Shown here: positions 35,658 to 57,527 of the stretch, piece after piece
Position numbering within the stretch: position 1 is the first letter of the stretch
Layout of the letters: each line of letters opens with the position of its first letter
From: Lamellibrachia columna
Lineage: Eukaryota; Annelida; Polychaeta; Sabellida; Siboglinidae
Direction: 5' to 3'
Length of the DNA stretch: 64,000 bases
NCBI GenBank assembly: GCA_963662155.1
Contig: OY759268.1
Location: forward strand, 58,666,140 to 58,730,139
Position numbers and translations under genes: made by a program
Notes under the pieces: model-generated
What the model saw: the letters and a program-made list of their open reading frames with translations, nothing else
Databases searched by the model: none
Told to the model about the DNA's origin: nothing

Positions 35658-35972
35658 CTATACGATATGTATTCGGAGTATACAGTTAGTGAAAGAGCAG
35701 TAGCAACAGTAGCAGACTGTGTCGTGGCGTCTGTACGATATGTATTCGGAGTATACAGTTAGTGAAAGAGCAGTAGCAACAGTAGCAGACTGTGTCGTGG
35801 CATCTATACGATATGCCTTGTTAATACTGACGTGTGTCAATTCGATTGATTCGTTAATCTCGTCGTCGTCGCATGGCGGATACATTGATGTGATGCATTC
35901 GATCAGCACGTGCGCTATTCGGTTCTGTACAGACAAATGCTCGATCACGCTACAGAAGACAGCCGCTTTCAC
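35658..35972 (-). pseudogene. Viral gene Y, left-arm 5' fragment running into the satellite
   Basis: An open frame starts with Met at 35,972. It encodes an unrecognised N-terminal region (MKAAVFCSVIEHLSVQNR, then an acidic CDDDEINESIE) and then continues straight into satellite sequence from 35,812. From there the translation is that of the 73-bp monomer (IDATTQSATVATALSLTVYS). The right-arm copy starts at 56,576 and has only five monomers before the gene resumes. Here the gene has been split by array expansion, and its 3' part is not in the window on this side. I do not recognise the family. The segment is shared between arms with few changes, which argues that it was coding before the duplication. 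Confidence 0.6.
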
Positions 35973-36071
35973 ACAGTACGTACTTTCACACAGTACGTAC
36001 TTTCACCCAGTATGTACTTTCACACAGTACGTACTTTCACACAGTACGTACTTTCACACAGTACCTACTTT
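35970..36071 (+). repeat. 17-bp minisatellite, six copies (one in the other arm)
   Basis: Six tandem copies of cacacagtacgtacttt begin at 35,970, 35,987, 36,004, 36,021, 36,038 and 36,055, with small changes in copies three and six. The matching place in the right arm (about 56,565-56,582) has a single copy. It lies at the start of viral gene Y, just upstream of and across its first codons. Confidence 0.92.
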
Positions 36072-36167
36072 CTGTCGCGTTCTTACAAAAACAGTTCGTT
36101 ACGATGTCGGATACACGTAACGTATACGATACTACATTACCGTCATTACACGTCGCACGAGCATCAC

Positions 36168-36895
36168 TCAATAGACGATAGAAGACGATATTTGATGTAC
36201 GTGGCTTTCTAATCCAATACAGAGCAGTTCGTCATCGGCAAACGGTACGTCTTGATTTCCGTACAGTTCCACGAACGCTCCGCAGACGTCTCCAATGGGA
36301 ACAGTAAAGGCGAATGTGTTCTGTGTACCTATAACGTAGCTGTCGTCATTCAAGAGATACATACTGCTGTTGGTCAGTATGTTAAAAATACACGGTGTAC
36401 TATCGGTATGATATACGTATTCGTCGATTTCGACCACATGTAGCACGTTCGGTAACAATTCGACGGCACAGTACAGGCCATGCGTACATGGTCGTACATG
36501 GTCGTACTTAGTCGTAGATTTGTCACTGCGTCGGCGCACACGTCCGCTGTGTCGCCACCATACGATGTTGCAGTCACGAACGTGAGTTCAATTACTATAG
36601 CGTCATCTTTACCGACATCGCGCATGCGTAGATGTATACGATGACTGTTGGTTGTAGCCGATGGGTTCGTATTTATCATCCAATCAGTCGTCTCCGTCGT
36701 TGCATCGGATGTCGGTATTGCAGCGTACACACCGTGTTGAATGGCGTCGATGTAGAGATTCCATAATCGACACGAACTTGTGTACGTCGGAAACCGATGC
36801 ATGCGATTGTCGTCTGTTGGCTGTAATTCGGATAACCGTGTCACAACATACGCGGCGTCGTACATACGATACGGTAGCTGTATGTCGATCATCAC
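36168..36895 (-). pseudogene. Viral gene X, left-arm copy, broken
   Basis: Two overlapping minus-strand frames together match one right-arm gene. The upstream frame from 36,895 gives MMIDIQLPYRMYDAAYVV, then SCRLWNLYIDAIQHGVYAAI and DAIVIELTFVTATSYGGDTA. The downstream frame, ending at 36,168, gives GLYCAVELLPNVLHVVEIDE, then SMYLLNDDSYVIGTQN and DVPFADDELL. The frame changes near a short direct repeat (tacatggtcg) at about 36,480-36,510. Compared with the right arm, about 74 bp is missing near 36,926. I see no signal peptide, membrane segment or known motif and cannot assign a function. It lies immediately downstream of the polymerase, on the same strand. Confidence 0.55.
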
Positions 36896-37116
36896 TGTAC
36901 GCGCTACCGTTTGTATCAGTTGCGATGAAGCATGTTCTTAACGGGAATGTTTCGTATTCCCAATGCCACCGGCGATGTCCACGTCTCTACGTCTCACGTC
37001 TCTACGCTGCTGCACGATTCGTTGCCGAGCAGAAGAACGCGTAGCGTATTGGCGCAGAACGTACTGAGTTGTACATGCGCCGGTCTTTGTACATCAAAGC
37101 GTCGAGGTATTTGTAT

Positions 37117-37480
37117 CGTGTCCGTACCGTCGATGTAACATACGTCGCGTGTCGTGTCCGTACCGTCGATGTAACATACGTCACGTGTCGTGTCCGTACC
37201 GTCGCTGTAACATACGTCGTGTGTCGTGACCGTACCGTCGACGTAACATACGTTGCGTGTCGTGTCCGTACCGTCGATGTAACATACGTCGTGTGTCGTG
37301 TCCGTACCGTCGATGTAACATACGTCGCGTGTCGTGTCCGTACCGTCGATGTAACATACGTCGTGTGTCGTGTCCGTACCGTCGATGTAACGTACGTCGT
37401 GTGTCGTGTCCGTACCGTCGATGTAACATACGTCGTGTGTCGTGTCCGTACCGTCGATGTAACATACGTTGCGTGCACGA
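37117..37480 (-). repeat. 36-bp minisatellite in viral coding sequence, ten copies
   Basis: Ten copies of a 36-bp unit (landmark tccgtaccgtcgatgtaac at 37,121 then every 36 bases to 37,445). The right arm has nine. Because 36 is a multiple of 3, each frame gives a 12-residue repeat (for example VCYIDGTDTTHD), and several frames on both strands stay open. It sits between the polymerase thumb and gene X. About 100 bp of viral sequence follows (36,994-37,116), also present in the right arm, with no family I recognise. Confidence 0.92.
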
Positions 37481-37810
37481 ACTGTTGCTATGTTGGAGTT
37501 AACGCCTGGTCTATGTAACGTGACGCGCATACTACTCGTAATATCGCACAACGGCACGATCCCTGTGTGATTGCGTCGCCGAAGTATAGGAATAACGCAA
37601 GTCCGCGTACGTCCGACTGATAGAGCAGTTTCCATGCTATTTCTTGGCACCGCGTTTGCCTGCGAGTTGTATCCAGTTTCTTTCCACTCATACCTGCAAT
37701 ATGGAAGCGCACATGACCGTCCGCAACAGCGTATCCCATGTAGGTCTTCTTTGCCAGTATGAATATACCATCTTCTCGAGCATTAGTTTCGTCGGTGCAC
37801 GGTAGAGTGG

Positions 37811-37903
37811 ACGCAATGTCGCAGTGCCTTCGTTACAATGTCGCAGTGCCTTCGTTATAATATCGCAGTGCCTTCGTTACAATGTCGCAGTGCCTTCGTT
37901 ACA
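37811..37903 (-). repeat. 22-bp minisatellite in the polymerase, four copies
   Basis: Four copies of a 22-bp unit (landmark gcagtgccttcgtta at 37,821, 37,843, 37,865 and 37,887), between the motif C region and the thumb. The right arm also has four (about 50,811-50,900). The period is not a multiple of 3, so any gain or loss shifts the polymerase frame. Confidence 0.88.
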
Positions 37904-38449
37904 AAGCCCCGCGAGGTGTACGCTGCGTTAGCTTAATGCTGACACCAGTTCACAAACGGTCATGTGGTTTCTGATGTGTATTCGCGTGCACAAACACCAT
38001 TGAGTGTTCGGGCGGTCATGTCGTCAGATGTTCGTCGTACCTGGGAACATTGACATTCTCGGCATTCGTCTCATTCGCAACTGTACTCAGATCATTCGCG
38101 TTGCGCATTTCGACACCGAGCGTCGTACAGGACCGATATGCCGTTGGTGAGAGAACATTCAAAAAGAGCGAATCCGTATCAGCGGTGACGACGCGGAACC
38201 CGAAGAGACTGGACATACGTTCTGCTACACTCCGAATAGCATTGCGTGCCGATGTAGTAATAGCTCCACCTACCGGTATCGCTGTCCTGGTCACGCTCGG
38301 CTTGCGCACGTGCCGTTTTGTACATTCGTCGCAGTGCTTTCATGTCTGTCGATATCATATTCGATAATGCCATAACATATCTTTCGGATACGAGCGGTTC
38401 TCGTCTGGTGATCTTGTGTGCACGACGTACGTTCTTGAACGTTTGTGGT

Positions 38450-38902
38450 TTGTTCGGTCGCGGCGCCACCGGTCCTGTTTCTGCAGACTCTTGGATAGAG
38501 CTGATCTCGGTGATCTCGTAGTCGATGCCTTCACGTAAATTGTTCGGTCGCGGTGCCACGGGTCCTGTTTCTGCGGATTCTTGGATAGAGCTGATCTCGA
38601 TGATCTCGTAGTCGATGCCTTCACGTAAATTGTTCGGTCACGGTGCCACGGGTCCTGTTTCTGCGGACTCTTGGATAGAGCTGACATCGATGATCTCGTA
38701 GTCGATGCCTTCACGTAAATTGTTCGGTCACGGTGCCACGGGTCCTGTTTCTGCGGATTCTTGGATAGAGCTGATCTCGATGATCTCGTAGTCGATGCCT
38801 TCACGTAAATTGTTCGGTCACGGTGCCACGGGTCCTGTTTCTGCGGACTCTTGGATAGTGCTGATCTCGATGATCTCGTAGTCGATGCCTTCACGTAAAT
38901 CG
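38450..38902 (-). repeat. 90-bp minisatellite in the polymerase fingers region, five copies
   Basis: Five units of 90 bp (landmark gttcggtc.cggtgccac at 38,453, 38,543, 38,633, 38,723 and 38,813). The right arm has two (50,021-50,200). In the polymerase frame each unit encodes 30 residues beginning near NLREGIDYEI. It lies between motif A and the fingers helices, so the expansion enlarged an internal loop while keeping frame. Confidence 0.92.
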
Positions 38903-39692
38903 TTCGTCGCGATGTAATCCCACGTCGTCATAGCCGACAAACACAGGTTATGTTCTTACATCAATGACGGATACTGCGACGAAAGGTCAAATGTGGCGTA
39001 CATATTATTAAACATTGCAATGTTGTTAGCGATCATACCGGCTCCCATCTGTGTTTTTTCGAAATCCACATCAACATCCTTTTCGCACCCCGGATGCAAC
39101 ATCTTTTCGAGGCCTTCGATCGTCACACATGGTACCGTCGGCGGCATAAGTACGCCATCACGAGCGTCACACTTTGCGAGTATATTTAACACGTTATACG
39201 TCGATCGTTGCATGAACAATTCTCGTGCGGACATCCCTTTGATACGCGATATGGCCACGTAGAAGTCGTTTACTTTCGTCACGCGTAACAGTAGCATTAC
39301 GACCAGACTATCCATGAGACAGTAGGCTATCAGCAGTTCTACGTCGTCCGTGTTTCCGTGTGACCACGTGTCGTATAGACGCGCATACGATACCTGCGGT
39401 GCGTCAATCTTTGCTACACCAATGTACTTCTTAGCGACAACGTCCAGTCGCGTCATCAGCTTACTCAAAAGACGCATTGCATTAGCAAATATTACGACAC
39501 GCGACGTGACGTGACGCATTGTCTTCGCCACTAACACCGTACGCCTCACAGCAGTCGTATCCGCCGCACCCTGCAGTTCGGTATCCGCGACTGTAGCATT
39601 GTCGTATACGGAATCGTGCACGTTCAATATCATAGTACGCATGAGATTTCTCTCTGAACTAACCGTTGTGGTATTGTAGTCTGACGAAGTAG

Positions 39693-40240
39693 TTGCATTG
39701 TTACTATTGTCGTCGTCAAGAACGTCGATGTCGTCGTTGGTATGTTGTTCGTCTGCGATCTCGTTGTCATCCTCATTGCTACTATTGTCGTCGTCAAGAA
39801 CGTCGATGTCGTCGTTGGTATGTTGTTCGTCTGTGATCTCGTTGTCAACCTCATTGCTACTATTGTCGTCGTCAAGAACGTCGATGTCGTCGTTGGTATG
39901 TTGTTCGTCTGCGATCTCGTTGTCATCCTCATTGCTACTATTGTCGTCGTCAAGAACGTCGATGTCGTCGTTGGTAAGTTGTTCGTCTGCGATCTCGTTG
40001 TCAACCTCATTGCTACTATTGTCGTCGTCAAGAACGTCGATGTCGTCGTTGGTATGTTGTTCGTCTGCGATCTCGTTGTCATCCTCATTGCTACTATTGT
40101 CCTCGTCAAGAACGTCGATGTCGTCGTTGGTAAGTTGTTCGTCTGCGATCTCGTTGTCATCCTCATTGCTACTATTGTCGTCGTCAAGAACGTCGATATC
40201 GTCGTTGGTAAGTTATTATCTCGTTGTCATCCTCATTGAT
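39693..40240 (-). repeat. 78-bp acidic-coding minisatellite, six copies plus a short unit
   Basis: Six 78-bp units (cctcattgct landmarks from 39,771 every 78 bases to 40,161), then a unit shortened to 70 bp near 40,231. In the polymerase frame each full unit encodes 26 residues rich in Asp, Glu and Asn (DDDNSSNEDDNEIADEQ). The shortened unit shifts frame relative to the Met at 40,273 and is also present in the right arm, so it predates the duplication. The right arm has thirteen full units. Confidence 0.93.
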
Positions 40241-40284
40241 ATCATACGCATCGTCGCGTTCGATAGCAAACATGCCGTTAACAA

Positions 40285-40667
40285 CGATGATGATCAACAA
40301 CATTTACAAAACGATCTAAACAAATTAGTTAAATGATCTGAAAAATGGCAGATGTTATTCAATTTTGGGTCTTCATAACTAAGGTCTATAAGTTCTGGAA
40401 TCATCTTTGTTGCTCTCCTCTATATTTTTGTCAAGTGTATCTATACCTTTCTTACGATATGGTATCCTAGTGTGTATACAGTATTCTAAATGAGGCCTAA
40501 CTATGCTTTCATACAGAGGTATAATTAGCACTTTTTCCTTGTATGTTATATTTCTCCTAATCAATCCAATAATTTGATTATCATTTGAAGCAGCAATACA
40601 ACACTGGTCTGAAACTGTCATATCAACACTTATTGTTACCAATCCATTTAGTGATTTCTAAAAAAAT
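40285..40667. mobile_element. Rearranged CR1 fragment, left arm
   Basis: A mosaic of pieces matches the CR1-like element at the left of the window. On the plus strand, about 40,288-40,369 matches its 1,735-1,816 (QQHLQNDL, then EKWQMLFNFG). Joined to it in opposite orientation, 40,370-40,640 matches 2,184 back to about 1,914 (IAASNDNQIIGLIRRNITYK, IVRPHLEYCI). A short piece near 40,640-40,667 matches 1,374-1,400. It abuts the first codons of the polymerase. The same mosaic is in the right arm. Confidence 0.8.
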
Positions 40668-40744
40668 ACAGGAAGACCAATGGCTGTCACGCGTGCTGTC
40701 TATCTGTTATCATGTGTGAAGACACAAGTGTCGTTTATTGCGTG

Positions 40745-40800
40745 ACGTCACCGATGATGATGAAGATGATGATGATGATGATGAAGATGATGATGGCTGC
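40745..40800 (+). repeat. (GAT/ATG)n trinucleotide microsatellite
   Basis: Imperfect gatgatgaa/gatgat run at about 40,753-40,795. The mirror copy (catcat) lies at 47,613-47,660 in the right arm with a slightly different sequence. No coding role is evident. Confidence 0.8.
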
Positions 40801-40923
40801 GTGATAGCGTGAAATGGAATTCAACTGTATGAGTATCACGCCAATTGCGTGAGACTTGGAAGCTCTGGCTAAGCATCATTGAATGGATGTTTTTTCCTGT
40901 TTCTTGGATGGTTTCAGTAGACA

Positions 40924-41048
40924 TGAAACGTGGTGGTATTCTGCGAATATTTCGGGCGACTCCCTCGGACTTCATTGCGAAGTCAGTCCGCCATTGCGGG
41001 CCGAGGATGTCGACCGAAATATTAGCAGAATACCACCAAGTTTCGTGA
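40924..41048. repeat. Short foldback hairpin, left arm
   Basis: An imperfect inverted repeat with stems of about 44 bases faces a loop of about 35. The left stem begins gaaacgtggtggtattctgc and ends ccctcgg. The right stem reads back as gaaacttggtggtattctgc ending tcctcgg. The mirror copy is at 47,365-47,490. It could be a small foldback/MITE-like element. No terminal target duplication was identified. Confidence 0.7.
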
Positions 41049-42065
41049 GAGGTATACAACATGTATATTAGTACCTCCACAATTCAACTGTTTTGCTAGT
41101 CTCATTTCAGATTCATTTTGCGACATATGACACTTCTCTGACATCCACTACAACATGCTAGCTCGTTTCTGCAACTGTATTTTGTGTGTGAAATCAACAG
41201 ACAAACTATGAAATTACATAATGTTTGGTGAAACGGGCGACGCTAAAAACTCACCAAAGGTGAGTAACTTTGTCATGCGATCGGTGCGAGGATGTAAGTC
41301 ACGTCAATGTATTGACCCGCAAAGTGTTTACCATTTAGGATATCAAGCATTTTGAGCCTTACCAGATCTAACGAATAACGAAAGTTAACGTCAATTTAAA
41401 GTACAGGCTTCGAGTATGCATTGACGACGGTACATAAACTATAAGAGGGACTCGCCAGTAGTCAGGTATGGCATATTCTATGATGTATGCATTAGCCACC
41501 ATGTTGATCAACGGAAATGCATTCACTGACAGATTCTGACTCGCTTATTTGAGTACATTATAAACACGACAACCTCTGGAGATTTGTCACTGTCACAGCA
41601 AGTCATGCGTTTGTCTGAATGTCAAATTGCAAGTTAAGCAATACGATGTAAGCAACATTGAAAAGAACATAAGTTATACGTTAACGGTAGAACCAGACTT
41701 CGATAATTCGTATTCGAACAGTACTTTTTAACAGTAAACGAACATTTTCATGAATGTATTCGTGTTCATGCAAATACTCTAAATACACCATATTTAGCTC
41801 GTAACTGACAATCCTATATGGAGGCATATTTGAATTCCACATAATGTCAATAACACTGCATTTGCGTAATTTCTATTAAAATAATTCATAACCAAGAAAG
41901 TAATAAATCAAATTTACAATTGCAAAATCGCATGAACAGGAGTAACGCTAGTACTAGTATATGTTTGTATATGTATCCCCTTAAAACCATAACAATAATG
42001 TTACCCACATGTGCTATACAAGGAATGGCATCGTCATTGAATGTCACAAGAGAAGAGCATCTATT
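41049..42065. other. Non-coding stretch, left arm
   Basis: About 1 kb of AT-rich sequence with no convincing frame, mirrored at 46,350-47,365. The only structure I see is a perfect 17-bp palindrome around 41,249-41,265 (actcacc, aaa, ggtgagt), a TATA-like site and short runs of no pattern. No RNA gene is apparent. Confidence 0.5.
41439..41503 (+). promoter_or_regulatory. Possible TATA box with a Kozak-like ATG
   Basis: ctataagagg at 41,439-41,448 resembles a TATA box. About 50 bases downstream, gccaccatg (41,495-41,503) is a strong Kozak context, but the frame stops after 11 codons. The pair is conserved in the mirror copy (46,907-46,972). It may be a relic promoter of an unidentified element or chance. 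Confidence 0.2.
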
Positions 42066-42069
42066 CGAA

Positions 42070-42378
42070 GCTACGATGTCGTGTCATTTACTGCAAGCTT
42101 GGCCTACATTATACGGTACTGAGAAAGATATAAATAGTGCGCAGGTAATGTTGTTTCACACCCGAACTAGAAGATACGATGTCGTGTCATTTACTGCAAG
42201 GTTGGCCTACATTATACGGTACTGAGAAAGATATAAATAGTGCGCAGGTACTGTTGTGCCACAACCGAACTAGAAGCTACGATGTCGTGTCATTTACTGC
42301 AAGGTTGGCCTACATTATACGGTACTGAGAAAGATATAAATAGTGCGCAGGTGATGTTGTGCCACAACGGAACTAGAA
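42070..42378 (+). repeat. 103-bp tandem repeat, three copies (one in the other arm)
   Basis: Units begin at 42,070, 42,173 and 42,276, each starting g.tacgatgtcgtgtcattt and containing gatataaatagtgcgcag. The right arm has one copy (about 46,240-46,340). Each unit contains a TATAAATA string, but there is no gene nearby to support a promoter. Confidence 0.92.
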
Positions 42379-42660
42379 GCGTGTGGTCATCAAAGAGGGG
42401 AATGTAGGTGACATGCCGCACCCATTCGTTTTTTCTTGCATCAACAAGTTGCTGTGCTGGCGTGGTTGTCATAGATAGGCCGAGCCGAAATCAAGTTTAC
42501 ACGTAGCAGAAGGTCACAATGGTGGCTGTAGTCAACCATGTGTTTCTACATTCTCACACACCCACAGCACTATGGGTGATTGCAATTGTGATTGTGGTTG
42601 CGCTTGGGTGCGTTGAGTTGGCACATCACATGTATACAGTATAAATCACAGGTTATTGAA
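42379..42660. other. Non-coding stretch, left arm
   Basis: No gene seen. The sequence is mirrored at about 46,012-46,240. At about 42,605-42,620 the right arm carries an extra block of roughly 0.77 kb that this arm lacks. Confidence 0.4.
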
Positions 42661-43640
42661 TCACATATTTGTGTACAATTTAGCGTTAAGAATAGAAATG
42701 GCAGAGGGTAAATAGAATACTTGTAGCGGTTTGAGGGAGTAAAACACTGCTGCTTCTGTGACTGAGCCTTGAATAACATTCCACGTGGAGGAGGTGTGAG
42801 AGGTCTTGGAGTGTTTAAAAAAAATATGTAACACTTTCCCACGATAAAAAGACTGAAAGTTGTCTAACTGTCTACCAACAATACGACTGGCTCTATGTAT
42901 GACTTTATCCACCCTCCTTTGATCATGTTTTGAAACATTCCCACCCCAACAGGCTGCCCCAGTAGAGAAAGTACTGGAAATTACTATATTATAAAACATC
43001 AGAAGAAGATCCGCACTGACTCCAAACCTCTTGAACTTCCTGAAACAGCACATCCTTGAATTTACTTTTTTCATCATGCTCTCATTGTTCTAATTCCAAT
43101 TAAGTTTTGAATAAATCACAATACCCAGGTATTTGTAAGTATCATCTCTCACCACCTCTTCACCCTTAATACAAACAGGTTGAGGAGGTGTTTGCTTTCG
43201 CCTAAAATCAATACATAGTTATTCAGTCTTCATGACATTTAACTGCAATTTTTTTTACAAAATCATTGATTTCTCGAAGGTAGCCAGAATCATCATTATT
43301 ATTATCCAAGCCAACAATGACACTGATGTCTAAATATTTGATCAGTGGATAGACATTGTCAGTACTTTTGTAGTCCGAAGTGTAGAGTGTATACAGGAAA
43401 GGTGCCAGAATTGTGCCTGGGGTGCGCAAGTGTTCGGTGGGAGACCGGATGCCTTCACGTCTGACATACTGACATATATTAGTTAAGTATCTAAAGATCC
43501 ATGAAACATAAGAGTATGGCACATTCATGTATAAAAGCTTTCGTGCACGAATATGAGGATGAATAGTATTAAAAGTACTGGGGAAATAAAAAAACAAATC
43601 GAAAATTACTGCATGCCACTTCTATATGAGAGTACACTCT
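42661..43640 (-). pseudogene. Degenerate LINE reverse transcriptase, left arm
   Basis: Two minus-strand pieces come from one non-LTR reverse transcriptase. The first (43,597-43,223) begins FPSTFNTIHPHIRARKLL and continues PGTILAPFLYTLYTSDYKST, equivalent to the usual palm A block and the G-x-P-Q-G block. The catalytic ADD is replaced (KYLDISVIVGL). After a stop and frame changes, the second (43,077-42,661) gives the C-terminal region AACWGGNVSKHDQRRVDKVI. It belongs to a different LINE family from the CR1-like and RTE-like elements here. It cannot be active. The mirror copy is at 44,200-45,190. Confidence 0.8.
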
Positions 43641-43793
43641 TTGTACAACATATATAACTACATCATCGACATATATGTTTCTCCTTGAATGGATAGATGA
43701 TCCGGTTTCTTGGTTGTTGATATTAAACATAATTACCTCTCAAGAAACAAACTTCAAGTTTGCTTAATATATGTTTCTCTTATAGCAAAAATG

Positions 43794-44158
<365 letters not shown>

Positions 44159-44199
44159 GTTTTTGCTATACGAGAAACATATATGTCGATTATGTAGTT

Positions 44200-45239
44200 C
44201 TATATGTTGTACAAAGAGTGTACTCTCATCTAGAAGTGGCATGCAGTAATTTTCGATTTGTTTTTTATTTCCCCAGTGCTTTTAATACTATGTATCCTCA
44301 TATTCATGCACGAAAGCTTTTAGACATGAATGTGCCATACTCTTATGTTTCATGGATCTTTAGATACTTAACTAATATATGTCAGTATGTCAGACGTAAA
44401 GGCATCCGGTCTCCCACCGAAAACTTGCGCACACCAGGCACAGTTCTGGCACCTTTCCTGTATACACTCTACACTTCGGACTACAAAAGTACTGACAATG
44501 TCTATCCACTGATCACATATTTAGACGTCAGTGTCATTGTTGGCTTGGATAATAATAATGATGATTCTGGCTACCTTCGAGAAATCAATGATTTTGTAAA
44601 AAAAATTGCAGTTAAATGTCATGAAGACTGAATAACTATGTATTGATTTTAGGCGAAAGCAAACACCTCCTCAACCTGTTTGTATTAAGGGTGAAGAGGT
44701 GGTGAGAGATGATACTTACAAATACCTGGGTATGGTAATTGATTCAAAACTTAACTGGAATTAGAACACTGAGAGCATGATGAAAAAAGTAAATTCAAGG
44801 ATGTGCTCTTTCAGGAAGTTCAAGATGTTTGGAGTCAGAGCGGATCTTCTGATGTTTTATAATATAGTAATTTCCAGTACTTTCTCTACTGGGGCAGCCT
44901 GTTGGGGTGGGAATGTTTCAAAACATGATCAAAGGAGGGTGGATAAAGTCATACATAGAGCCAGTCGTATTGTTGGTAGACAGTTAGACAACTTTCAGTC
45001 TTTTTATCGTGGGAAAGTGTTACATATTTTTTTTAAACACTCCAAGACCTCTTACACCTCCTCCACGTGGAATTTTATTCAAGGCTCAGTCACAGAAGCA
45101 GCAGTGTTTTACTCCCTCAAACCGCTACAGGTATTCTTTTTACCCTCTGCCATTTCTATTCTTAACGCTAAATTGTACACAAATATGTGATTCAATAACC
45201 TGTGATTTATACTGTATATATGTGATGTGCCAACTCTAG
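44200..45239 (+). pseudogene. Degenerate LINE reverse transcriptase, right arm
   Basis: Mirror of 42,661-43,640. The first piece (44,218-44,631) contains FPSAFNTMYPHIHARKLLDM and PGTVLAPFLYTLYTSDYKST, with TYLDVSVIVGL where the catalytic ADD is expected. Several stops follow. The second piece (44,777-45,190) contains AACWGGNVSKHDQRRVDKVI and SLKPLQVFFLPSAISIL. Both arms share the loss of the active site, so the element was dead before the duplication. Confidence 0.8.
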
Positions 45240-45978
45240 ACATAATGCTCAAGGTTTGGTTTCCATCGTGTTGTAAGTGTCGATCGGCACTGTAATTTTC
45301 TTGTCGGACGAATAAAGCATTATTGCAATGTATTGTGTTAATAAAACAACGGTGCATGTACATAGATTTCTTCCGTACTGTGTGTTCTGCCATGTTGACG
45401 TGTTTGTAGTATTATTTTACACATGGCCACAGCACCTGGCGGTGGAACTGGGCACAATCTACTCGCTCAGCCGTATTTCTTACTCCTGTTATTTTTACTG
45501 TTTCTGTTCCGGCAGTGCCACTTGCGGCCGACGTGCCTGCCCAGCATAGGGCCTACGGTACAGAGTGTAGGGCCCTTCACGGTAGGGCCCACGGCAGTGA
45601 AGGGTCTACGGTACGCAGTGTATGGCCTACGGTACGCAGTGAAGGGTCTACGGTACGCAGTGTATGGCCTACGGTACGTAGTGAAGGGTCTATGGTACGC
45701 AGTGTATGGCCTACGGTACGCAGTGAAGGGCCTACGGTACGCAGTGTAGGGCCCACGTTACGTAGTGAAGGGTCTACGGTACGCAGTGTATGGCCTACGG
45801 TACGCAGTGAAGGGCCTACGGTACGCAGCAGCACAGAGATCATGTACGAACACCATGCACAAATCTCTGTTACTGCTTGCGTACGTAATTTGTATATGAC
45901 CCCCATATCCTTGTGACTAACTTATGCTACATACGACTTTGACGTGTCCCTAATACTTCTGTGCCTTCCACAGGCACA

Positions 45979-47364: not shown

Positions 47365-47490
47365 TCTCACGAAACTTGGTGGTATTCTGCTAATATTTCG
47401 GTCGACATCCTCGGCCCGCAATGGCGGACTGACTTCGCAATGAAGTCCGAGGGAGTCGCCCGAAATATTCGCAGAATACCACCACGTTTC
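47365..47490. repeat. Short foldback hairpin, right arm
   Basis: Mirror of 40,924-41,048, with the same stems (gaaacttggtggtattctgc facing cagaataccaccacgtttc). Conserved between arms. Confidence 0.7.
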
Positions 47491-47611
47491 ATGTCTACTG
47501 AAACCATCCAAGAAACAGGAAAAAACATCCATTCAATGATGCTTAAGCAGAGCTTCCAAGTCTCACGCAATTGGCGTGATACTCATACAGTTGACTTCCA
47601 TTTCACGCAGC

Positions 47612-47642
<31 letters not shown>

Positions 47643-47724
47643 GTCACCATCATCATCGGTGACGTCACGCAATAAACGACATTTGATAATAGATAAACAG
47701 CACGCGTGACAGCCATTGGTCTTC

Positions 47725-48110
47725 GTGCATTTTTTAAGAACTCACTAAATGGATTGGTAACAATAAGTGTTGATATGACAGTTTCAGACCAGTGTTGTAT
47801 TGCTGCTTCAAATGATAATCAAATTATTGGATTGATTACGAGAAATATAACATACAAGGAAAAAGTGCTAATTATACCTCTGTATGAAAGCATAGTTAGG
47901 CCTCATTTAGAATACTGTATACACACTTGGAGACCATATCGTAAGAAGGGTATAGATACACTTGACAAAAATATAGAGGAGAGCAACAAAGATGATTCCA
48001 GAACTGATAGACCTTAGTTATATAGACCCAAAATTAAATAATATCTGCCATTTTTCAGATCATTTAACTAATTTGTTTAGATAGTTTTGTAAATGTCGTT
48101 GATCATCATC
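47725..48110. mobile_element. Rearranged CR1 fragment, right arm
   Basis: Mirror of 40,285-40,667. The plus-strand part gives IAASNDNQIIGLITRNITYK and IVRPHLEYCIHTWRPYRKKG. The inverted part toward 48,110 matches the QQHLQNDL segment. It abuts the start of the polymerase pseudogene at 48,123. Confidence 0.8.
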
Positions 48111-48158
48111 GTTGTTAACGGCATGTTTGCTAGCGAACGCGACGATGCGTATTATATC

Positions 48159-49245
48159 AATGAGGATGACAACGAGATAATAACTTACCAACGACGACAT
48201 CGACGTTCTTGACGACGACAATAGTAGCAATGAGGATGACAACGAGATCACAGACGAACAACATACCAACGACGACATCGACGTTCTTGACGACGACAAT
48301 AGTAGCAATGAGGATGACAACGAGATCGCAGACGAACAACATACCAACGACGACATCGACGTTCTTGACGACGACAATAGTAGCAATGAGGATGACAACG
48401 AGATCACAGACGAACAACATACCAACGACGACATCGACGTTCTTGACGACGACAATAGTAGCAATGAGGATGACAACGAGATCACAGACGAACAACATAC
48501 CAACGACGACATCGACGTTCTTGACGACGACAATAGTAACAATGAGGATGACAACGAGATCGCAGACGAACAACATACAAACGACGACATCGACGTTCTT
48601 GACGACGACAATAGTAGCAATGAGGATGACAACGAGATCGCAGACGAACAACATACAAACGACGACATCGACGTTCTTGACGACGACAATAGTAGCAATG
48701 AGGTTGACAACGAGATCGCAGACGAACAACTTACCAACGACGACATCGACGTTCTTGACGACGACAATAGTAACAATGAGGATGACAACGAGATCACAGA
48801 CGAACAACATACCAACGACGACATCGACGTTCTTGACGACGACAATAGTAACAATGAGGATGACAACGAGATCACAGACGAACAACATACAAACGACGAC
48901 ATCGACGTTCTTGACGACGACAATAGTAGCAATGAGGATGACAACGAGATCGCAGACGAACAACATACAAACGACGACATTGACGTTCTTGACGACGACA
49001 ATAGTAGCAATGAGGTTGACAACGAGATCGCAGACGAACAACTTACCAACGACGACATCGACGTTCTTGACGACGACAATAGTAGCAATGAGGATGACAA
49101 CGAGATCGCAGACGAACAACATACCAACGACGACATCGACGTTCTTGACGACGACAATAGTAGCAATGAGGATGACAACGAGATCGCAGACGAACAACAT
49201 ACCAACGACGACATCGACGTTCTTGACGACGACAATAGTAACAAT
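48159..49245 (+). repeat. 78-bp acidic-coding minisatellite, thirteen copies plus a short unit
   Basis: A 70-bp short unit at 48,159-48,228, then thirteen 78-bp units starting at 48,229 and ending at 49,242. They are in frame with the downstream exonuclease segment and encode 26-residue acidic repeats (DDDNSSNEDDNEIADEQ). The left arm has six full units. The other open frames here (SSLLLLSSSRTSMSS, VVVKNVDVVVG) are shadows. Confidence 0.95.
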
Positions 49246-50020
49246 GCAACTACTGCGTCAGACTACAATACCACAACGATTAGTTCAGACAGAAATCTCA
49301 TGCGTACTATGATATTGAACGTGCACGATTCCGTATACGACAATGCTACAGTCGCGGATACCGAAATGCAGGGTGCGGCGGATACGACTGCTGTGAGGCG
49401 TACGGTGTTAGTGGCGAAGACAATACGTCACGTCACGTCGCGTGTCGTAATATTTGCTGATGCAATGCGTCTTTTGAGTAAGCTGATGACGCGACTGGAC
49501 GTTGTCGCTAAGAAGTACATTGGTGTAGGAAAGATTGACGAACCGCAGTTATCGTATGCGCGTCTATACGACACGTGGTCACACGGAAACACGGACGACG
49601 TAGAACTGCTGCTAGCCTACTGTCTCATGGATAGTCTGGTCGTAATGCTACTGTTACGCGTGACGAAAGTAAACGACTTCTACGTGGCCATATCGCGTAT
49701 CAACGGGATGTCCGTACGAGAATTGTTCATGCAACGATCGACGTATAACGTGTTGAATATACTCGCAAAGTGTGGCGCTCGTGATGGCGTACTTATGCCG
49801 CCGACGGTACCATGTGTGACGATCGAAGGCCTCGAAAAGATGTTGCATCCGGAGTGCGAAAAGGATGTTGATGGGAGCCGGTATGACCGCTAACAACATT
49901 GGAATGTTTAATAACATGTACGCCACATTTGACTTTTCGTCGCAGTATCCGTCATTGATGTAAGAACATAACCTGTGTTTGTCGGCTATGACGACGTGGG
50001 AATACATCGCGACGAACGAT

Positions 50021-50200
50021 TTACGTGAAGGCATCGACTACGAGATCATCGAGATCAGCACTATCCAAGGGTCCGCAGAAACAGGACCCGTGGCACCGTG
50101 ACCGAACAAATTACTTGAAGGCATCGACTACGAGATCACCGAGATCAGCTTTATCCAAGAGTCCGCAGAAACAGGACTCGTGGCGCCGCGACCGTACAAA
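50021..50200 (+). repeat. 90-bp repeat in the polymerase fingers region, two copies
   Basis: Two units with landmarks gaaggcatcgactacgagat at about 50,027 and 50,117. The left arm has five. The unit encodes EGIDYEI followed by a Pro-rich end (VAPRP). Confidence 0.9.
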
Positions 50201-50810
50201 CCACAAACGTTCAAGAACGTAAGTCGTGCACACAAGATCACCAGACGAGAACCTCTCGTATCCGAAAGATATGTTATGGCATTATCGAATATGATATCGA
50301 CAGACATGAAAGCACTGCGACGAATGTACAAAACGGCACGTGCGCAAGCCGAGCGTGACCAGGACAGCGATACCGAAGCCCCCGCGATACACAACAGTTA
50401 TCGGTGAAGATCGAAAACAACGCAATGTATGGAGTGTTGCTCTATTTGCAAGCGTCGGTAGGTGGAGCCATTACTACATCGGCTCGCAATGCTATTCGGA
50501 GTGTAGCAGAACGTACGTCCGCTGATACGGATTCGCTCTTTTTGAATGTTCTCTCACCAACGGCCGTTATATCGGTCCTGTACGACGCTCGGTGTCGAAA
50601 TGCGCAACGCGAATGATCTGAGTACAGTTGCGAATAAGACGAATGCCGAGAATGTCAATGTTCCCAGGTACGACGAACATCTGACGACATGACCGCCCGA
50701 ACACTTAATGGTGTTTGTGCACGCGAACACACATCAGAAACCACATGACCGTTTGTGAACTGGTGTCAGCATTAAGCAAACGCTGCGTACACCTCGCGGG
50801 GCTTTGTAGC

Positions 50811-50905
50811 GAAGGCACTGCGACATTGTAACGAAGGCATTGCGATATTATAAAGAAGGCACTGCGACATTGTAACGAAGGCACTGCGACATTGCGTCCA
50901 CTCTA
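50811..50905 (+). repeat. 22-bp minisatellite in the polymerase, four copies
   Basis: Four units with landmark gaaggca(c/t)tgcga at about 50,811, 50,833, 50,855 and 50,877. It mirrors 37,811-37,903, with one unit carrying taaagaagg instead of taacgaagg. Confidence 0.88.
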
Positions 50906-51236
50906 CCGTGCACCGACGAAACTAATGCTCGAGAAGATGGTATATTCATACTGGCAAAGAAGACCTACATGGGATACGCTGTTGCGGACGGTCATGTGCG
51001 CTTCCATATTGCAGGTATGAGTGGAAAGAAACTGGGTACAACTCGCAGGCAAACGCGGTGCCAAGAAATAGCATGGAAACTGCTCTATCAGTCGGACGTA
51101 CGCGGACTTGCGTTATTCCTATACTTCGGCGACGCCATCACACAGGGATCGTGCCGTTGTGCGATATTACGAGTAGTATGCGCGTCACGTTACATAGACC
51201 AGGCGTTAACTCCAACATAGCAACAGTTCGTGCACG

Positions 51237-51560
51237 CAACGTATGTTACATCGACGGTACGGACACGACACACGACGTATGCTACATCGACGGTACGGAC
51301 ACGACACACGACGTACGTTACATCGACGGTACGGACACGACACACGACGTATGTTACATCGACGGTACGGACACGACACGCGACGTATGTTACATCGACG
51401 GTACGGACACGACACACGACGTATGTTACGTCGACGGTACGGACACGACACACGACGTATGTTACATCGACGGTACGGACACGACACGCGACATATGTTA
51501 CATCGACGGTACGGACACGACACGCGACGTATGTTACATCGACGGTACGGACACGACACA
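51237..51560 (+). repeat. 36-bp minisatellite in viral coding sequence, nine copies
   Basis: Landmark cggtacggacacgacac at 51,254 then every 36 bases to 51,542. The left arm has ten. It is in the polymerase thumb frame after one stop (51,218-51,220). It is followed by YLDALMYKDRRM and SVRSAPIRYAFFC to 51,670, also present in the left arm. Confidence 0.92.
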
Positions 51561-51751
51561 AATACCTCGACGCTTTGATGTACAAAGACCGGCGCATGTG
51601 CAACTCGGTACGTTCTGCGCCAATACGCTACGCGTTTTTCTGCTCGGCAAATACTCGTGCAGCAGCGTAGAGACGTGAACATCGCCGGTGGCATTGGGAA
51701 TACGAAACATTCCCGTTAAGAACATGCTTCATCGCATCTGCGCAATCGGCG

Positions 51752-52511
51752 ATGATGCGACCTTACGCGGCCGTAAATAACAAACGTATGTACGACGAAC
51801 GCATGCGACAACTGATACAAACGGTAGCGCATACAGTGATGATCGACATACAGCTACCGTATCGCATGTACGACGCCGTGTATGTTGTGACACGGTTATC
51901 CGAATTGCAGTCAACAGACGACAATCGCACGTATCGGTTTCCGACGTCCACAAGTTCGTGTCGATTATGGAATCTCTACATCGACGCCATTCAACACGGT
52001 GTGTACGCTGCAATACCGACATCCGATGCAACGACGGAGACGACTGATTGGATGATGAATTATACCCATCGGCTGCAACCAACAGTCATCGTATACATCT
52101 ACGCATGCGCGATGTCGGTAACGATGAAGCTATAGTAATTGAACTCACGTTCGTGACTGCAACATCGTATGGTGGCGACACAGCGGACGTATGCGCCGAC
52201 GCAGTGACAAATCTACGACTATGTACGACCATGTACGACCATGTACGCGTGGCATGTACGGTGCCGTCGAATTGTTACCGAACGTGCTACATGTGGTCCA
52301 AATCGGCGAATACGTATATCAGACCGATAGTACACCGTGTATTTTTAAAGGACTGACCAACAGCAGTATGTATCTCTTGAATGACGACAGCTACGTTATA
52401 GATACACAGAACGCATTCGCCTTTACTGTTCCCATTGGAGACATCTGCGGAGCGTTCGTGAAACTGTACGGAAATCAAGACGTACTGTTTGCCGATGACG
52501 AACTGCTCTGA
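51752..52511 (+). pseudogene. Viral gene X, right-arm copy, broken
   Basis: The first frame from 51,752 gives MMRPYAAVNNKRMYDERMRQ and IDIQLPYRMYDAVYVVTRL. A second, starting at 52,048, gives EAIVIELTFVTATSYGGDTA, and a third, ending at 52,511, gives ELLPNVLHVVQIGEYVY and SSMYLLNDDSYVIDTQN. Matching pieces in the left arm show these belong to one gene with at least two frame changes (about 52,055 and 52,220). The first frame is the same as that of the polymerase thumb upstream, so X may once have been a C-terminal extension of the polymerase or a separate downstream gene. No known domain is recognised. About 74 bp present here (near 51,745) is missing in the left arm. Confidence 0.55.
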
Positions 52512-52595
52512 ATCGAATATCGTCCTCTATCGTCTATTGAGTGATGCTCGTGCGACGTGTAATGACGGTAATGTAGTATCGTATACGTTACGTGT

Positions 52596-52603
52596 ATACT
52601 ACA
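52596..52603. repeat. Target-site duplication, 5' copy
   Basis: atactaca at 52,596-52,603 is repeated exactly at 56,521-56,528 on the other side of the RTE-like element. The left arm has an uninterrupted equivalent (about 36,105-36,120), which places the insertion after the inverted duplication. Confidence 0.85.
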
Positions 52604-53351
52604 GTGTAGTGTGGCGTGTCAACACAGGTCTTTGTGATGCGCCTAGTGCTGTAGTGTAGTGTGTAGTGTGTAGCTCTTGCTTCATACTCTCGCTTTCAAC
52701 TACAGACGCCAGATAGCTCCTTGGAGTGAAAAGGGAGCTGAGTGCATAAGTCTCCCCTGCTGGTACATAGCCTCTCCATAGACAAGACTCTAGCACAACC
52801 TCCTCGTGGTACACTGCGGATACTGGGTACCCTGCGGCCCCAGGCAAATGTGCTGGAGATCTCGGAGCAGATTGGAGCCCCAGAAGTGTCGTGTGCTGGG
52901 CCCACCGGCGAGTGGATACGTCCCGACAGTCACCATTCCAATCCCCCAACTATGGGTAAATAGTCAGTGTCGGGCAGCAGCGATGTTTTGTATCTGGTAC
53001 TGGAGGTATGCAAGTATTACAGTACCTCTGGTACTACAATACCTCAGGGAGTTTGACGCCCCTGCATTGCAGAGTTGAAAATCACTGCCTTGTGATACAG
53101 GTTCTCGACAGAACCGAAGGCTAAGGGAGCAAACCCTAACAGAAAACCATGTCATTGTGGCAGCATCAAGGGCGGTTGATGAATGGAACTCCCAACATCT
53201 CCCGACCAGCCACTGCACGGACAAATAGCTCGCGCCTGTCTTGACGTGTTCTTGCCGGTGTGAGACCTCTATTTGCTCCCCGAGAGAGTGCCGCTAGTAA
53301 CTTGCAAAAGCCAGCAGCACTTCAACACTTTTTGCAAGCAGCTCTCATGAA
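52604..53351 (+). other. 5' leader of the RTE-like element
   Basis: About 750 bp upstream of the ORF. It begins with gtgtagtgtggcgtg and a tagtgtagtgtgtag stutter near 52,655. Short frames on both strands do not look like proteins. Non-LTR elements usually carry an internal promoter here, but I cannot point to its motifs. Confidence 0.6.
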
Positions 53352-56300
53352 ATGCACAACCGCACGAATTATCATACCGGACCGGTCGTCGCCCGGGTTA
53401 CCAAGGACCGCGCTGCTCGACCTCATCTTCCGTCGACAGTGAAAAATCAGCTAGGAAGAAGAGAACAACTATCAATTGCTCAATGGAACGTCAGGACTCT
53501 CCTCGACCGAGAAGTAGCCGACCGACCGGAAAGACGTACTGCACTAGTAGCAATGGAACTCGCCAAGTACAATATAGACATTGCCGCCCTGTGCGAAACA
53601 AGGTTCTCAGAGTCTGGTAGTCTTAATGACTTGGAGTACTCTTTCTTCTGGAGTGGCAGACCCAAGGGAGAGAGAAGGGAGGCTGGAGTGGGCTTTGCTA
53701 TAAAGAAGGACATCGTGACAATGCTGACAGAAATGCCACGGCCAGTAAGTGACAGAATCATGATGATGAGACTACCTCTGAACAAGGACAACAATGCTAC
53801 AATTATCAGTGTTTACGCTCCAACAATGACAAACCCGGACGATAACAAGGAGGCTTTCTACAACCAGCTGTCAAGTACGCTCAGAGACATCCCTCGTACC
53901 GATAAGTTACTGCTGATAGGAGACTTCAATGCAAGGATAGGAAGAGACAATGACAAATGGACCATGATCATGGGCAAATATGGGATCGGGAAACGCAACT
54001 CCAATGGCGAGCTTCTACTGGCTTTGTGCTCTGAGTTCGAACTGATAGTGACAAACACCATGTTCAAGCAGAAGGATGAATGCAAGACCACCTGGATGCA
54101 TCCTCGCTCCAGACACTGGCATATGATCGACTTCATCATCACGAGGTGTCGGGATAAGATGGACATCCACAGTACTCGAGCCATGCGTGGAGCTAACTGC
54201 TGGACCGATCACCATATGCTGAGGTCAAAAGTGGCATTTAGAGTACGACAAAAGCACAACAGGCAAGGGGTAAGAAAACCGACCAAGCTAAACACAGCAA
54301 AACTACGTACCATCAGTCAAAGGGAGAGCTTCGAGCAGGAGATGGACAGCGCTCTCGCCCAATGGGAGGAGAAGGAAAACCCAACACCAGATGAGGAATG
54401 GGCAGCTCTGCAACAGGTAGTATACAACACAGCTAAAACATTTCTCGGCAAGCCAGACAGAAAACACCAGGACTGGTTCGACCCCAACGACCAGGAGCTA
54501 CAAAATCTAATGAGCAGAAGAGACCAATCCCACCAGAGAGTGTTGCAGACCAGGAGTACTAGATCCACCATTGCAGCGTACAAAGATTCCTGCAGACTGC
54601 TACAAAAACGCACCCGTGCCCTGAAGTCAGAATGGTGGGAAACGAAGGCAGAGGAGCTGCAGAGATCTGCAGACAGAAACGACATGAAGGGCTTCTACAA
54701 TGGACTGAAGGAAGTGTGGGGACCCGCGAAAAAGGGACCTGTTCACCTGAAGTCAACAGATGGAATGGAGACCTTCTCCGACAGCAAGAGAGTTGTGGCA
54801 AGATGGAGTGAACACTTCCAAAAACTACTCAACGTCCCTGGCGACATAGAACATGAAGCTCTTGTCAACATCCAGCAGCGCATTACCAACACATGCCTTG
54901 ATGAGATTCCAAATATGGATGAGATGGCTAGAGCAATCGCCGGCCTGAAAGATGGCAAAGCACCTGGGGGTGATGGAATTCCTGCTGAAGTATGGAAGCA
55001 CGGAGGAGACAATCTGTCCAACAGACTGCACCAATTAATCACCAAAGCCTGGGAGGAGGGTTCTGTACCACAAGCGTGGAAGGATGCCAGCATTGTAACC
55101 ATCTACAAGAAAGGAGATCGAACAGACTGTGGGAACTACAGAGGAATCTCTCTTCTTTCCATAGCAGGCAAGATCTTCGCCAGGATCCTGCTCAACAGAC
55201 TATCTATTCACATAACACCAGAAGTAGTTCCGGAGACACAGTGTGGCTTCAGATCCAACCGGAGCACAGCGGACATGATATTTTGTCTTCGACAACTACA
55301 AGAAAAGTGCATTGAGCAGGACCGACCACTATACATAGTATTTGTCGACTTCACGAAGGCGTTTGATACAGTCGGAAGGACCGGGCTATGGCAGCTACTG
55401 AGGAAATATGGATGCCCAGAGAAATTCACAACCATGATCGAGGCTCTACATACGGGAATGATGGCGAATGTGAGTGTTGGAGGGGAAGTCTCGGAAACGT
55501 TCGGTGTTACCAATGGTGTCAAGCAAGGCTGTGTACTGGCCCCCACGCTCTTCTCCATCTTCCTATCGGCAATGCTCGTCGAGGCTTTCAGAGGCATGGG
55601 AGATGGCGTCTATATACAGTCTAGACAGAGCGCTGACCTATTCAACGTCGCATACTTCAGAGCGAAAACCAAGACTACCCAGATACTTGTGAGAGAGCTG
55701 CTATACGCAGATGACAGTGCACTGGTTGCCCACTCTGCTGAAGAGATCCAGAGAATAGTGGATGCTTTCTCCGATGCATCAAAGAAGTTCGGCCTGAAGA
55801 TTAACATCAAGAAGACGGAAGTGCTGTACCAACCCAACTCTACAAGAACCCGAGAGGAGGATATCATGGTTGATGGAAACAAGCTGAACTCTGTTCCGGA
55901 ATTCACCTACCTCGGAAGCACTATATCAAGTGATGGACGCATTGATGCTGAAATACAGAGGAGGATGGCCAAGGCTAGCGCATCTTTCGGCCGATTACGC
56001 CAGAGAATCTGGAACAACCACCATGTGTCCACGCGGGTCAAAGGCAAGATCTACCTCGCAATTGTGCTATCCACCTTACTATACGGAGCCGAGGCCTGGA
56101 CAGTGTACAGACGACAGGTGAAAAAGCTGCATGCCTTCATGATGCGACATCTGCGTTCGATCATGAGGCTAACCTGGAAGGACAAAGTGACAAACAAGGA
56201 AATACTCGGTCGGATAGGGCTGCCTTCTATGGAAGATCTTCTGATCAAAAAGAATCTCCTGTGGACTGGACACCTCATGAGGATGTCATCAGACAGACTA

Positions 56301-56474
56301 CCAAAGCAGATCCTCTACTCTCAATTGTCTTCTGGTCACAGACAGAGAGGACGCCCTCGTCTCCGGTTCAAGGATACCATCAAAAGAAACCTCAATATGA
56401 GAGACATAAAGACCGACTCATGGACATCACTCTCACAGCAGAGAACTAAATGGAGTGCGGCGGTCAAGAAATGA
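53352..56474 (+). CDS. RTE-like endonuclease/reverse transcriptase
   Basis: A 1,040-residue open frame. The N-terminal AP endonuclease shows SIAQWNVRTLL, ALCETRF, ISVYAPT, LLIGDFNARIG, MIDFIIT and TDHHMLRS. The reverse transcriptase shows GKAPGGDGIPAEVW, NYRGISLLSIAGKIF, QCGFRSNRSTADMIF, VFVDFTKAFDTV, GVKQGCVLAPTLFSIF and the catalytic LLYADDSAL, then FTYLGSTIS. The C-terminus (GHLMRMSSDRLPKQILY, RQRGRPRLRFKD) is the type often mislabelled in databases as craniofacial development protein 2-like. It nicks genomic DNA and reverse-transcribes its own RNA. All catalytic boxes are present with no stop, so it may be active. The first Met at 53,352 is the only good start in the frame. The clade name is from memory of motifs. 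Confidence 0.92.
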   Translation: MHNRTNYHTGPVVARVTKDRAARPHLPSTVKNQLGRREQLSIAQWNVRTLLDREVADRPERRTALVAMELAKYNIDIAALCETRFSESGSLNDLEYSFFWSGRPKGERREAGVGFAIKKDIVTMLTEMPRPVSDRIMMMRLPLNKDNNATIISVYAPTMTNPDDNKEAFYNQLSSTLRDIPRTDKLLLIGDFNARIGRDNDKWTMIMGKYGIGKRNSNGELLLALCSEFELIVTNTMFKQKDECKTTWMHPRSRHWHMIDFIITRCRDKMDIHSTRAMRGANCWTDHHMLRSKVAFRVRQKHNRQGVRKPTKLNTAKLRTISQRESFEQEMDSALAQWEEKENPTPDEEWAALQQVVYNTAKTFLGKPDRKHQDWFDPNDQELQNLMSRRDQSHQRVLQTRSTRSTIAAYKDSCRLLQKRTRALKSEWWETKAEELQRSADRNDMKGFYNGLKEVWGPAKKGPVHLKSTDGMETFSDSKRVVARWSEHFQKLLNVPGDIEHEALVNIQQRITNTCLDEIPNMDEMARAIAGLKDGKAPGGDGIPAEVWKHGGDNLSNRLHQLITKAWEEGSVPQAWKDASIVTIYKKGDRTDCGNYRGISLLSIAGKIFARILLNRLSIHITPEVVPETQCGFRSNRSTADMIFCLRQLQEKCIEQDRPLYIVFVDFTKAFDTVGRTGLWQLLRKYGCPEKFTTMIEALHTGMMANVSVGGEVSETFGVTNGVKQGCVLAPTLFSIFLSAMLVEAFRGMGDGVYIQSRQSADLFNVAYFRAKTKTTQILVRELLYADDSALVAHSAEEIQRIVDAFSDASKKFGLKINIKKTEVLYQPNSTRTREEDIMVDGNKLNSVPEFTYLGSTISSDGRIDAEIQRRMAKASASFGRLRQRIWNNHHVSTRVKGKIYLAIVLSTLLYGAEAWTVYRRQVKKLHAFMMRHLRSIMRLTWKDKVTNKEILGRIGLPSMEDLLIKKNLLWTGHLMRMSSDRLPKQILYSQLSSGHRQRGRPRLRFKDTIKRNLNMRDIKTDSWTSLSQQRTKWSAAVKK

Positions 56475-56520
56475 AAGCAGTCTTTGTCGCATAGCGACCG
56501 ACAGCATGATGATGATGATG

Positions 56521-56528
56521 ATACTACA
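56521..56528. repeat. Target-site duplication, 3' copy
   Basis: atactaca, identical to 52,596-52,603, directly after the (atg)n tail. It is followed by catcgtaacgaactg, which continues the arm sequence. Confidence 0.85.
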
Positions 56529-56575
56529 TCGTAACGAACTGTTTTTGTACGAACGCGACAGAAAGTACGTACTGT

Positions 56576-57527
56576 GTGAAAGCGGCTGTCTTCTGTAGCG
56601 TGATCGAGCATTTGTCTGTACAGAACCGAATAGCGCACGTGCTGATCGAATGCATAACATCAACGTATCCGCCATGCGACGACGACGAGATTAACGAATC
56701 AATCGAAGTGACACACGTCAGTATTAACAAGGCATATCGTATAGATGCCACGACACAGTCTGCTACTGTTGCTACTGCTCTTTCACTAACTGTATACTCC
56801 GACTACATATCGTATAGACGCCACAACACAGTCTGCTACTGTTGCTACTGCTCTTTCACTAACTGTATACTCCGAGTACATATCGTATAGACGCCACGAC
56901 ACAGTCTGCTACTGTTGCTACTGCTCTTTCACTAACTGTATACTCCGAATATATATCGTACAGACGCCACGACACAGTATGTTACTGTTGCTACTGCTCT
57001 TTCACTAACTGTATACTCCGAATACATATCGTACAGACGTCACGACACAGTCTGCTACTGTTGCTACTGCTCTTTCACTAACTGTATACTCCGAATACAT
57101 GGGACACGTGGTATCGCGTCAACAGAATGTCACAATGAATACCGTAATCGATGATCCGCGTGAACGATTCTTAGAGTCTGTTAACGAACACCCGTCGAAA
57201 GGTATCACACCGTTTACATTAGCCCGACGAGACGGACGCCGCCGACGACGACAGAAGTGTTCGACATCCGAGACTACTGATGACGGCGGAACGGTTACAA
57301 AACATCATCGAACACAGGTCGGAAAGCGTCACGCATCCCATGAGACGGACGTCAACACTAGTGACATTTCTATTGGTGACGACGTTGCCAGAACCGCGGA
57401 TTCAACTACTGCAGCGTTAACGAAGACACCGGTATACGGAGGACAGCAGGGGAAACGTTCTCGATTATTGGGTCACGTGATTCGAACGGTGCTGCCGCAT
57501 GATGAGAACGCAAACGATGGATACTGA
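56576..57527 (+). pseudogene. Viral gene Y split by five 73-bp monomers, right arm
   Basis: The 5' part starts with Met 56,576 (MKAAVFCSVIEHLSVQNR, then the acidic CDDDEINESIE) and runs into the first 73-bp monomer at 56,736. Five monomers end at 57,100, and the gene resumes as MGHVVSRQQNVTMNTV to a stop at 57,525-57,527. It contains a strongly basic patch (RRDGRRRRRQK) and a Ser/Thr-rich tail. The 5' frame and the 3' frame differ by the 292 bp that four extra monomers add, so they would agree if only one monomer were present. I do not recognise the protein; the basic patch suggests nucleic-acid binding or nuclear localisation, as inference only. The left-arm counterpart enters the 33-kb array at the same base. 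Confidence 0.65.
56736..57100 (-). repeat. 73-bp satellite, exactly five copies inside a viral gene
   Basis: Five head-to-tail monomers of 73 bp (365 bp), inverted relative to the main array, with viral coding sequence on both sides. The first carries gatgccacg, as does the array unit touching the viral flank at 35,812. Most units carry the tctgctactg variant that in the big array is seen mainly near that same boundary and in a subset of older units. Confidence 0.96.

Follow-up and report, generated by a model that had tools for sequence, protein, structure and literature searches.

How does a satellite array of many kilobases come to lie inside a gene, and did its repeat unit originate there or arrive from elsewhere? 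The question is raised by a 64-kb stretch of the Lamellibrachia columna genome (C8:58666140-58730139; 880 Mb in 30 contigs), hereafter the window, in which units of 73 bp interrupt a gene, here called gene Y, of what appears to be an endogenous virus-like element. The window contains an inverted duplication centred near 43.9 kb, the arms of which are inverted copies of each other and differ by 2.3% (97 substitutions in 4271 aligned columns, summed over seven chosen non-repeat pieces; single pieces range from 0.8 to 4.8%). A preliminary description of this locus read the unit as an internal piece of the element's gene that was subsequently expanded, and this reading is supported by the comparison of all gene Y copies found in the genome. 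The features of the window that enter the argument are collected in Table 1.

Table 1. Features of the 64-kb window discussed in the text (positions counted from the first base of the window)
Feature	Position	Strand	Remarks
RT ORF of the LINE-bearing insert that breaks the giant array	133..2502	+	RVT_1 1.5e-32; array resumes on the far side
Near half of the giant 73-bp array, left arm	2599..35815	-	Period 73, 454.9 copies, 93% matches
Gene Y 5' flank, left arm	35816..35987	-	98% identity to 56561-56732 (3 differences in 172)
17-bp minisatellite that runs into the gene Y 5' flank at its upstream edge	35966..36072	-	6.3 copies
Fragment with weak resemblance to family B DNA polymerase	38956..39642	-	Two collinear stretches match DNA polymerase delta, E 0.55
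Segment confined to the right arm, carrying a second LINE	52598..56560	+	Gap in the arm alignment; RT ORF 53352-56474, RVT_1 7.2e-34
Gene Y 5' flank, right arm	56561..56732	+	Open frame from GTG 56576, without ATG
Five 73-bp units and closing CAT, right arm	56733..57100	+	Period 73, 5.0 copies, 95% matches
Gene Y 3' part, right arm	57101..57527	+	ORF 57099-57527, 142 aa; one of 10 genome copies found
ORF P0001, membrane-glycoprotein-like by eye	59841..61061	-	Relatives at 89-97% (4 public protein clusters)
ORF P0002, possibly envelope-like, C-terminal hydrophobic stretch by eye	61111..62247	-	Also found beyond the giant array

In the right arm, the units lie within gene Y with sequence of the gene on both sides, as the preliminary description had stated, and its claim that gene Y meets the array at the equivalent base in both arms holds as well, the 5' flanks of the arms being almost identical. 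Because CAT stands at either end of the array, each boundary can be placed only to within 3 bp, and the junction placed earlier at 35,812 and here at 35,815 is therefore one and the same. The unit at this boundary had been said to carry the same private variants in both arms. Sharing was indeed observed, with 14T and 31C present on either side, but the variants are not strictly private: of the 448 full-length units that the left-arm array has in the window, 13 carry 14T and 28 carry 31C.

The left-arm array, estimated at 33 kb from the window, is actually about 65 kb long. Position 2599 is not the end of the array but the edge of an inserted LINE, where AAATCTTGTT tail repeats adjoin. Past this insert of ~4.8 kb, the array resumes to the left of the window and continues through L019, L020 and L022 into L023. 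With the insert included, it spans C8:58632363-58701954 (69,592 bp), and it holds ~888 units, 455 in the window and ~433 beyond it (432 of them anchored unit by unit). The array ends in L023 at the gene Y 3' part (L023:5797-6223, 97% identity), which the preliminary description had suggested looking for to the left of the window, and beyond it follow other sequences known from the right of the right arm. The LINE in this array and the one confined to the right arm are different, their ORFs showing 28% identity where alignable. Long tandem arrays are hard to assemble, and the assembly was read here without its underlying reads. We nevertheless give hardly any credence to the idea that the giant array is an assembly artefact, as its units are heterogeneous (the 448 full-length ones in the window fall into 174 distinct types), both of its edges match sister copies, and it is broken by an insert.

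Searching the genome with the gene Y 5' flank and with the 3' part yielded 11 and 10 places, respectively, with all 11 and all 10 candidates scored. Every one of these flanks adjoins a 73-bp unit or part unit. Conversely, the preliminary description had asked whether each array is flanked by gene Y, and the 5' flank was present at all 11 array places found and the 3' part at 10 of the 11. The copies differ widely in the number of units, with 1 in L010 and L011, 2 in L014, 2.7 in L012 and L013, 5 in the right arm of the window, 6 in L016, 16 in L018, 21.7 in L015, 51 in L017 and ~888 in the left arm of the window. L012, L013 and L015 have in common a shortened 3' junction that meets a 54-bp part unit, and L018 keeps only ~9 bp of the 3' part. 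A single-copy form of the unit hence exists in the same genome, and gene Y with one uninterrupted unit, proposed at the outset as a form to search for, was found at two places, C1:40.52 Mb and C1:38.25 Mb (L010 and L011).

Gene Y without any unit, which the preliminary description had set against its own reading, was seen in none of the 11 5'-flank copies and none of the 10 3'-flank copies, diverged copies being ones that such a search could miss. Searches with the monomer (10 of 12 candidates scored) reported unit arrays on two contigs, all of them in gene Y; these searches did not list the giant array itself and might overlook arrays located outside gene Y. The earlier phrase "large host satellite" goes further than these results, since every reported array place sits in gene Y. 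These counts bear on the proposal that an unrelated host satellite or repeat was inserted into an ancestral gene Y with a 3-bp target duplication of CAT and later changed in number. CAT at both ends of the unit also fits a 3-bp target duplication, and to that extent it counts against a native unit. An insertion is still very unlikely in our view, given that no empty gene Y was found among the 11 and 10 copies, that all the array places reported lie in gene Y, and that the reading frame is continuous when one unit is present.

This frame continuity had been predicted from the two halves of gene Y in the window, which are in one frame if a single unit is counted, and two natural copies have exactly that arrangement. 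In L010 and L011, the only one-unit copies, an open frame of 219 codons runs from a GTG across the 5' flank, the unit and the 3' part. Six of the 11 copies were subjected to the frame test, and the frame is open in L010 and L011 and broken in L014, the right arm of the window, L016 and L017. A first-order model leaves at least one frame open in 11% of 162-nt stretches. The length of the unit, 73 bp, is not a multiple of 3.

It is possible, if somewhat doubtful, that the unit belongs to a non-coding leader of gene Y and that the ORF starts at the ATG formed by the last CAT of the array together with a G. The array would in that case be a minisatellite between genes, possibly with a former regulatory role, which is compatible with an origin in place. 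Consistent with a leader, the 5' half of gene Y has no ATG in either arm, and the 3' ORF has relatives in three public protein clusters (77-98%), the representatives of which (12 members in total) begin either at this ATG or at the one after it. The three codon positions have similar numbers of substitutions, which gives no sign of codon constraint, with 8, 8 and 9 variable sites by codon position in the 5' flank (11 copies) and 12, 9 and 12 in the 3' part (full-length copies). Codon usage lends no support to the 5' frame, and a reverse frame scored higher. On the other hand, a leader does not account easily for a frame open over 219 codons in two copies, and an upstream start may be masked by the LINE and by the 17-bp array beside the 5' flank, which reaches up to ~21 copies in other copies of the element.

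The relationships of the copies were assessed in an unrooted tree of the flanks (9 of the 11 copies, 300 bootstraps), L015 and L018 being omitted because they lack part of the sequence. Two groups are separated in 99% of the bootstraps, C1 (1, 1 and 51 units) and C8 (2 to 888 units). The one-unit copies differ by 0.8% in their flanks and group with the 51-unit copy; being near-identical, they count as one observation. Their unit differs from the consensus of the window array at position 31 only, and it equals the second unit of L012 and L013 as well as the third unit of the right arm.

This grouping agrees with a history in which the ancestor of all copies already carried several units and the one-unit copies are contractions. 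Such a history concerns direction only, as the unit would still be native to the element, and it is compatible with the rest of the explanation favoured below. The distribution of 10C points the same way, this variant being shared by C1 arrays and, in C8 arrays, by the last units. It is present in all 51 units of L017, in all 16 of L018 and in the last units of six C8 arrays, and two unit types could have existed before the C1/C8 split, with L010 and L011 having lost units. Moreover, units differ from one another by 5.1% among the five of the right arm and by 7.3% in the window array, which exceeds the divergence between the arms. We nonetheless regard contraction as rather unlikely, since only the one-unit form is open throughout among the six copies tested and since the unit of the one-unit copies is a central type. 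From these two observations and the lack of an empty form among the copies found, we infer that one unit was the starting state, the tree being unrooted.

The types of the edge units indicate how the arrays grew. In six of the seven C8 arrays, the first unit has 14T together with 31C, and in six of them the last unit has 10C, 16T and 31C (as part units in L012 and L013), L015 being the exception at both ends. As the edge units keep their types, growth was thus internal. The giant array shows the same contrast between edges and centre, with 31C present in 28 of the 372 units nearest the 5' flank, in 24 of the 44 units nearest the 3' part, and in none of the units in between. On the 5' side, it is found in units 1, 2, 3, 5, 11 and 15 and then in about every 15th unit. 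Runs of units also recur exactly at long lags in the window array, for example, 71 units at a lag of 88. The 31C pattern and the repeated runs fit internal growth by block copying in which the old edges were kept. Two features of a satellite are accordingly present in the giant array, a long head-to-tail series of near-identical units and block amplification with differences between edge and centre.

Quite probably, a native segment of gene Y bounded by CAT on either side was duplicated in place and expanded inside endogenous virus-like copies. The 73-bp unit would originally have been an internal part of the gene, present once in its undivided form with a CAT trinucleotide at each end. Slippage or an event guided by microhomology at these trinucleotides may then have produced a tandem copy in place; direct repeats of at least 3 bp at this spacing are found at 3% of the positions in gene Y. 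Later on, unequal exchange or replication errors may have changed the number of units separately in different copies of the element, with a maximum of ~888. Growth of the left-arm interior would have proceeded by the copying of multi-unit blocks while the edge units stayed, and a LINE would have entered the array thereafter.

The 73-bp unit is one of several segments of this element family that are found in tandem. A 96-bp segment of gene Y forms arrays of 4.9, 13.0 and 12.3 copies in L012, L013 and L015, respectively, and two segments of P0001 do likewise, one of 38 bp (8.1 copies in L015, 23.1 in L016 and 4.1 in L023) and one of 37 bp (10.1 copies in L017). Arrays with periods of 96, 38 and 37 are absent from the window, where each of these segments is single. 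The direct repeats flanking the single segments measure 2 bp (38-bp segment), 4 bp (37-bp segment) and 1 bp (96-bp segment), and microhomology is therefore clear for some segments but not for all. Since no fewer than three further internal segments occur singly in the window and in tandem elsewhere, the family may act as a nursery of arrays, and we lean towards the view that this one genome displays the stages of the birth of a satellite from a piece of a viral gene, from one in-frame copy through short arrays to an array of 65 kb.

The element itself is best described as resembling an endogenous large DNA virus, a label suggested by dense ORFs, the weak polymerase-like fragment, the ORFs that look glycoprotein-like by eye and a sub-threshold RING match. 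The polymerase-like fragment has no Pfam match, and no Pfam match to the hallmark genes (polymerase, capsid, terminase) was obtained for the ORFs scanned. Predicted structures were of no use, with a mean pLDDT of 35.9 for P0001 and 31.4 for P0002. No relatives of P0001, P0002 or the monomer were found in viral_contigs, nor of P0001 or the monomer in genome_contigs, two collections that may leave out the records of the window's own genome. TTAGGG repeats occur at two of the seven large-contig ends read, and contig 30 (16,783 bp) has a mitochondrial gene order that we take to be annelid. A nimavirus as the source was a lead only, and it is weakened by these telomere repeats and this mitochondrial gene order, which are signs of a non-crustacean host.

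Coding minisatellites and VNTRs are short internal segments in tandem whose number varies between copies. The present array differs from them in a period that is not divisible by three and in having reached ~65 kb in one copy. Another parallel is Tetris TIR-220 of Drosophila virilis, described as a case where internal tandem repeats of a mobile element built longer satellite arrays (PMC4079207). In both systems, tandem repeats inside an element gave rise to satellite arrays, but the source of TIR-220 is reported to be the terminal inverted repeats of a foldback transposon, whereas here it is a gene-internal segment of a virus-like element (PMC4079207). Furthermore, as compared with Tetris as described there, the genome studied here retains the one-unit form, and the arrays found in it have stayed within their source gene (PMC4079207).

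In endogenous nimaviruses, too, an animal genome harbours a large DNA virus in many copies, with tandem repeats of varying length (PMC10871703, PMC7016691). They are described from crustaceans, where they insert into host microsatellites or 28S rDNA (PMC10871703, PMC7016691). Here, in contrast, the repeat seems to have been born inside the element, the host is an annelid, and no nimavirus gene was identified. Genes of large DNA viruses in an annelid genome are also represented by the Malacoherpesvirus-like sequences reported from Capitella teleta, as opposed to which no herpesvirus hallmark gene was identified in our element (PMC5552708). Among the papers listed in literature searches, none was seen to describe a viral gene giving rise to a satellite.

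The start of a satellite from single-copy DNA is usually hidden, as the source is lost and the array homogenised. At this locus, the source gene, the one-unit form, the intermediates and the giant array are found in one genome with comparable flanks, which makes the site where an array begins, the survival of particular units and the pace of growth amenable to counting. If the viral label is true, satellite DNA would have a further source, besides transposons, in endogenous large DNA viruses.

Internal segments other than the 73-bp unit also form arrays. In L016, a further copy of gene Y elsewhere in the genome, the P0001 ORF (membrane-glycoprotein-like by eye) contains a tandemly repeated 38-bp segment that occurs once in the window. 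The 3' part of gene Y in another copy, L013, contains a second array. There are also minisatellites of three periods, each divisible by 3, whose copy numbers are not the same in the left and right arms.

Near the centre of the inverted duplication lies a TA dinucleotide run, and the sequences flanking the centre are, by eye, possibly the relic of a third reverse-transcriptase element. Close to the element's left limit, in L026, there is a RING-finger-like ORF (Pfam zf-C3HC4_3, E 0.0059, below the cut-off).

Features of the element (bare coordinates, window; L-numbers, other stretches of the same genome)
Feature	Location	Copies (left/right arm where two are given)
TA run	44051-44155	
Possible reverse-transcriptase relic	42615-43683, 44172-45236	
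RING-finger-like ORF	L026:9508-10000	
38-bp array	L016:7091-7966	23
96-bp array	L013:1632-2880	13
Minisatellites	36994-40217, 48179-51678	
36 bp		10.0/8.9
78 bp		6.7/13.7
90 bp		5.1/2.2
Same-sequence ORFs	L021:52-888, L024:7898-9091	

The inverted duplication extends past the window on both sides, as ORFs of the same sequence are positioned outside both arms; the element therefore looks like a long head-to-head duplication.
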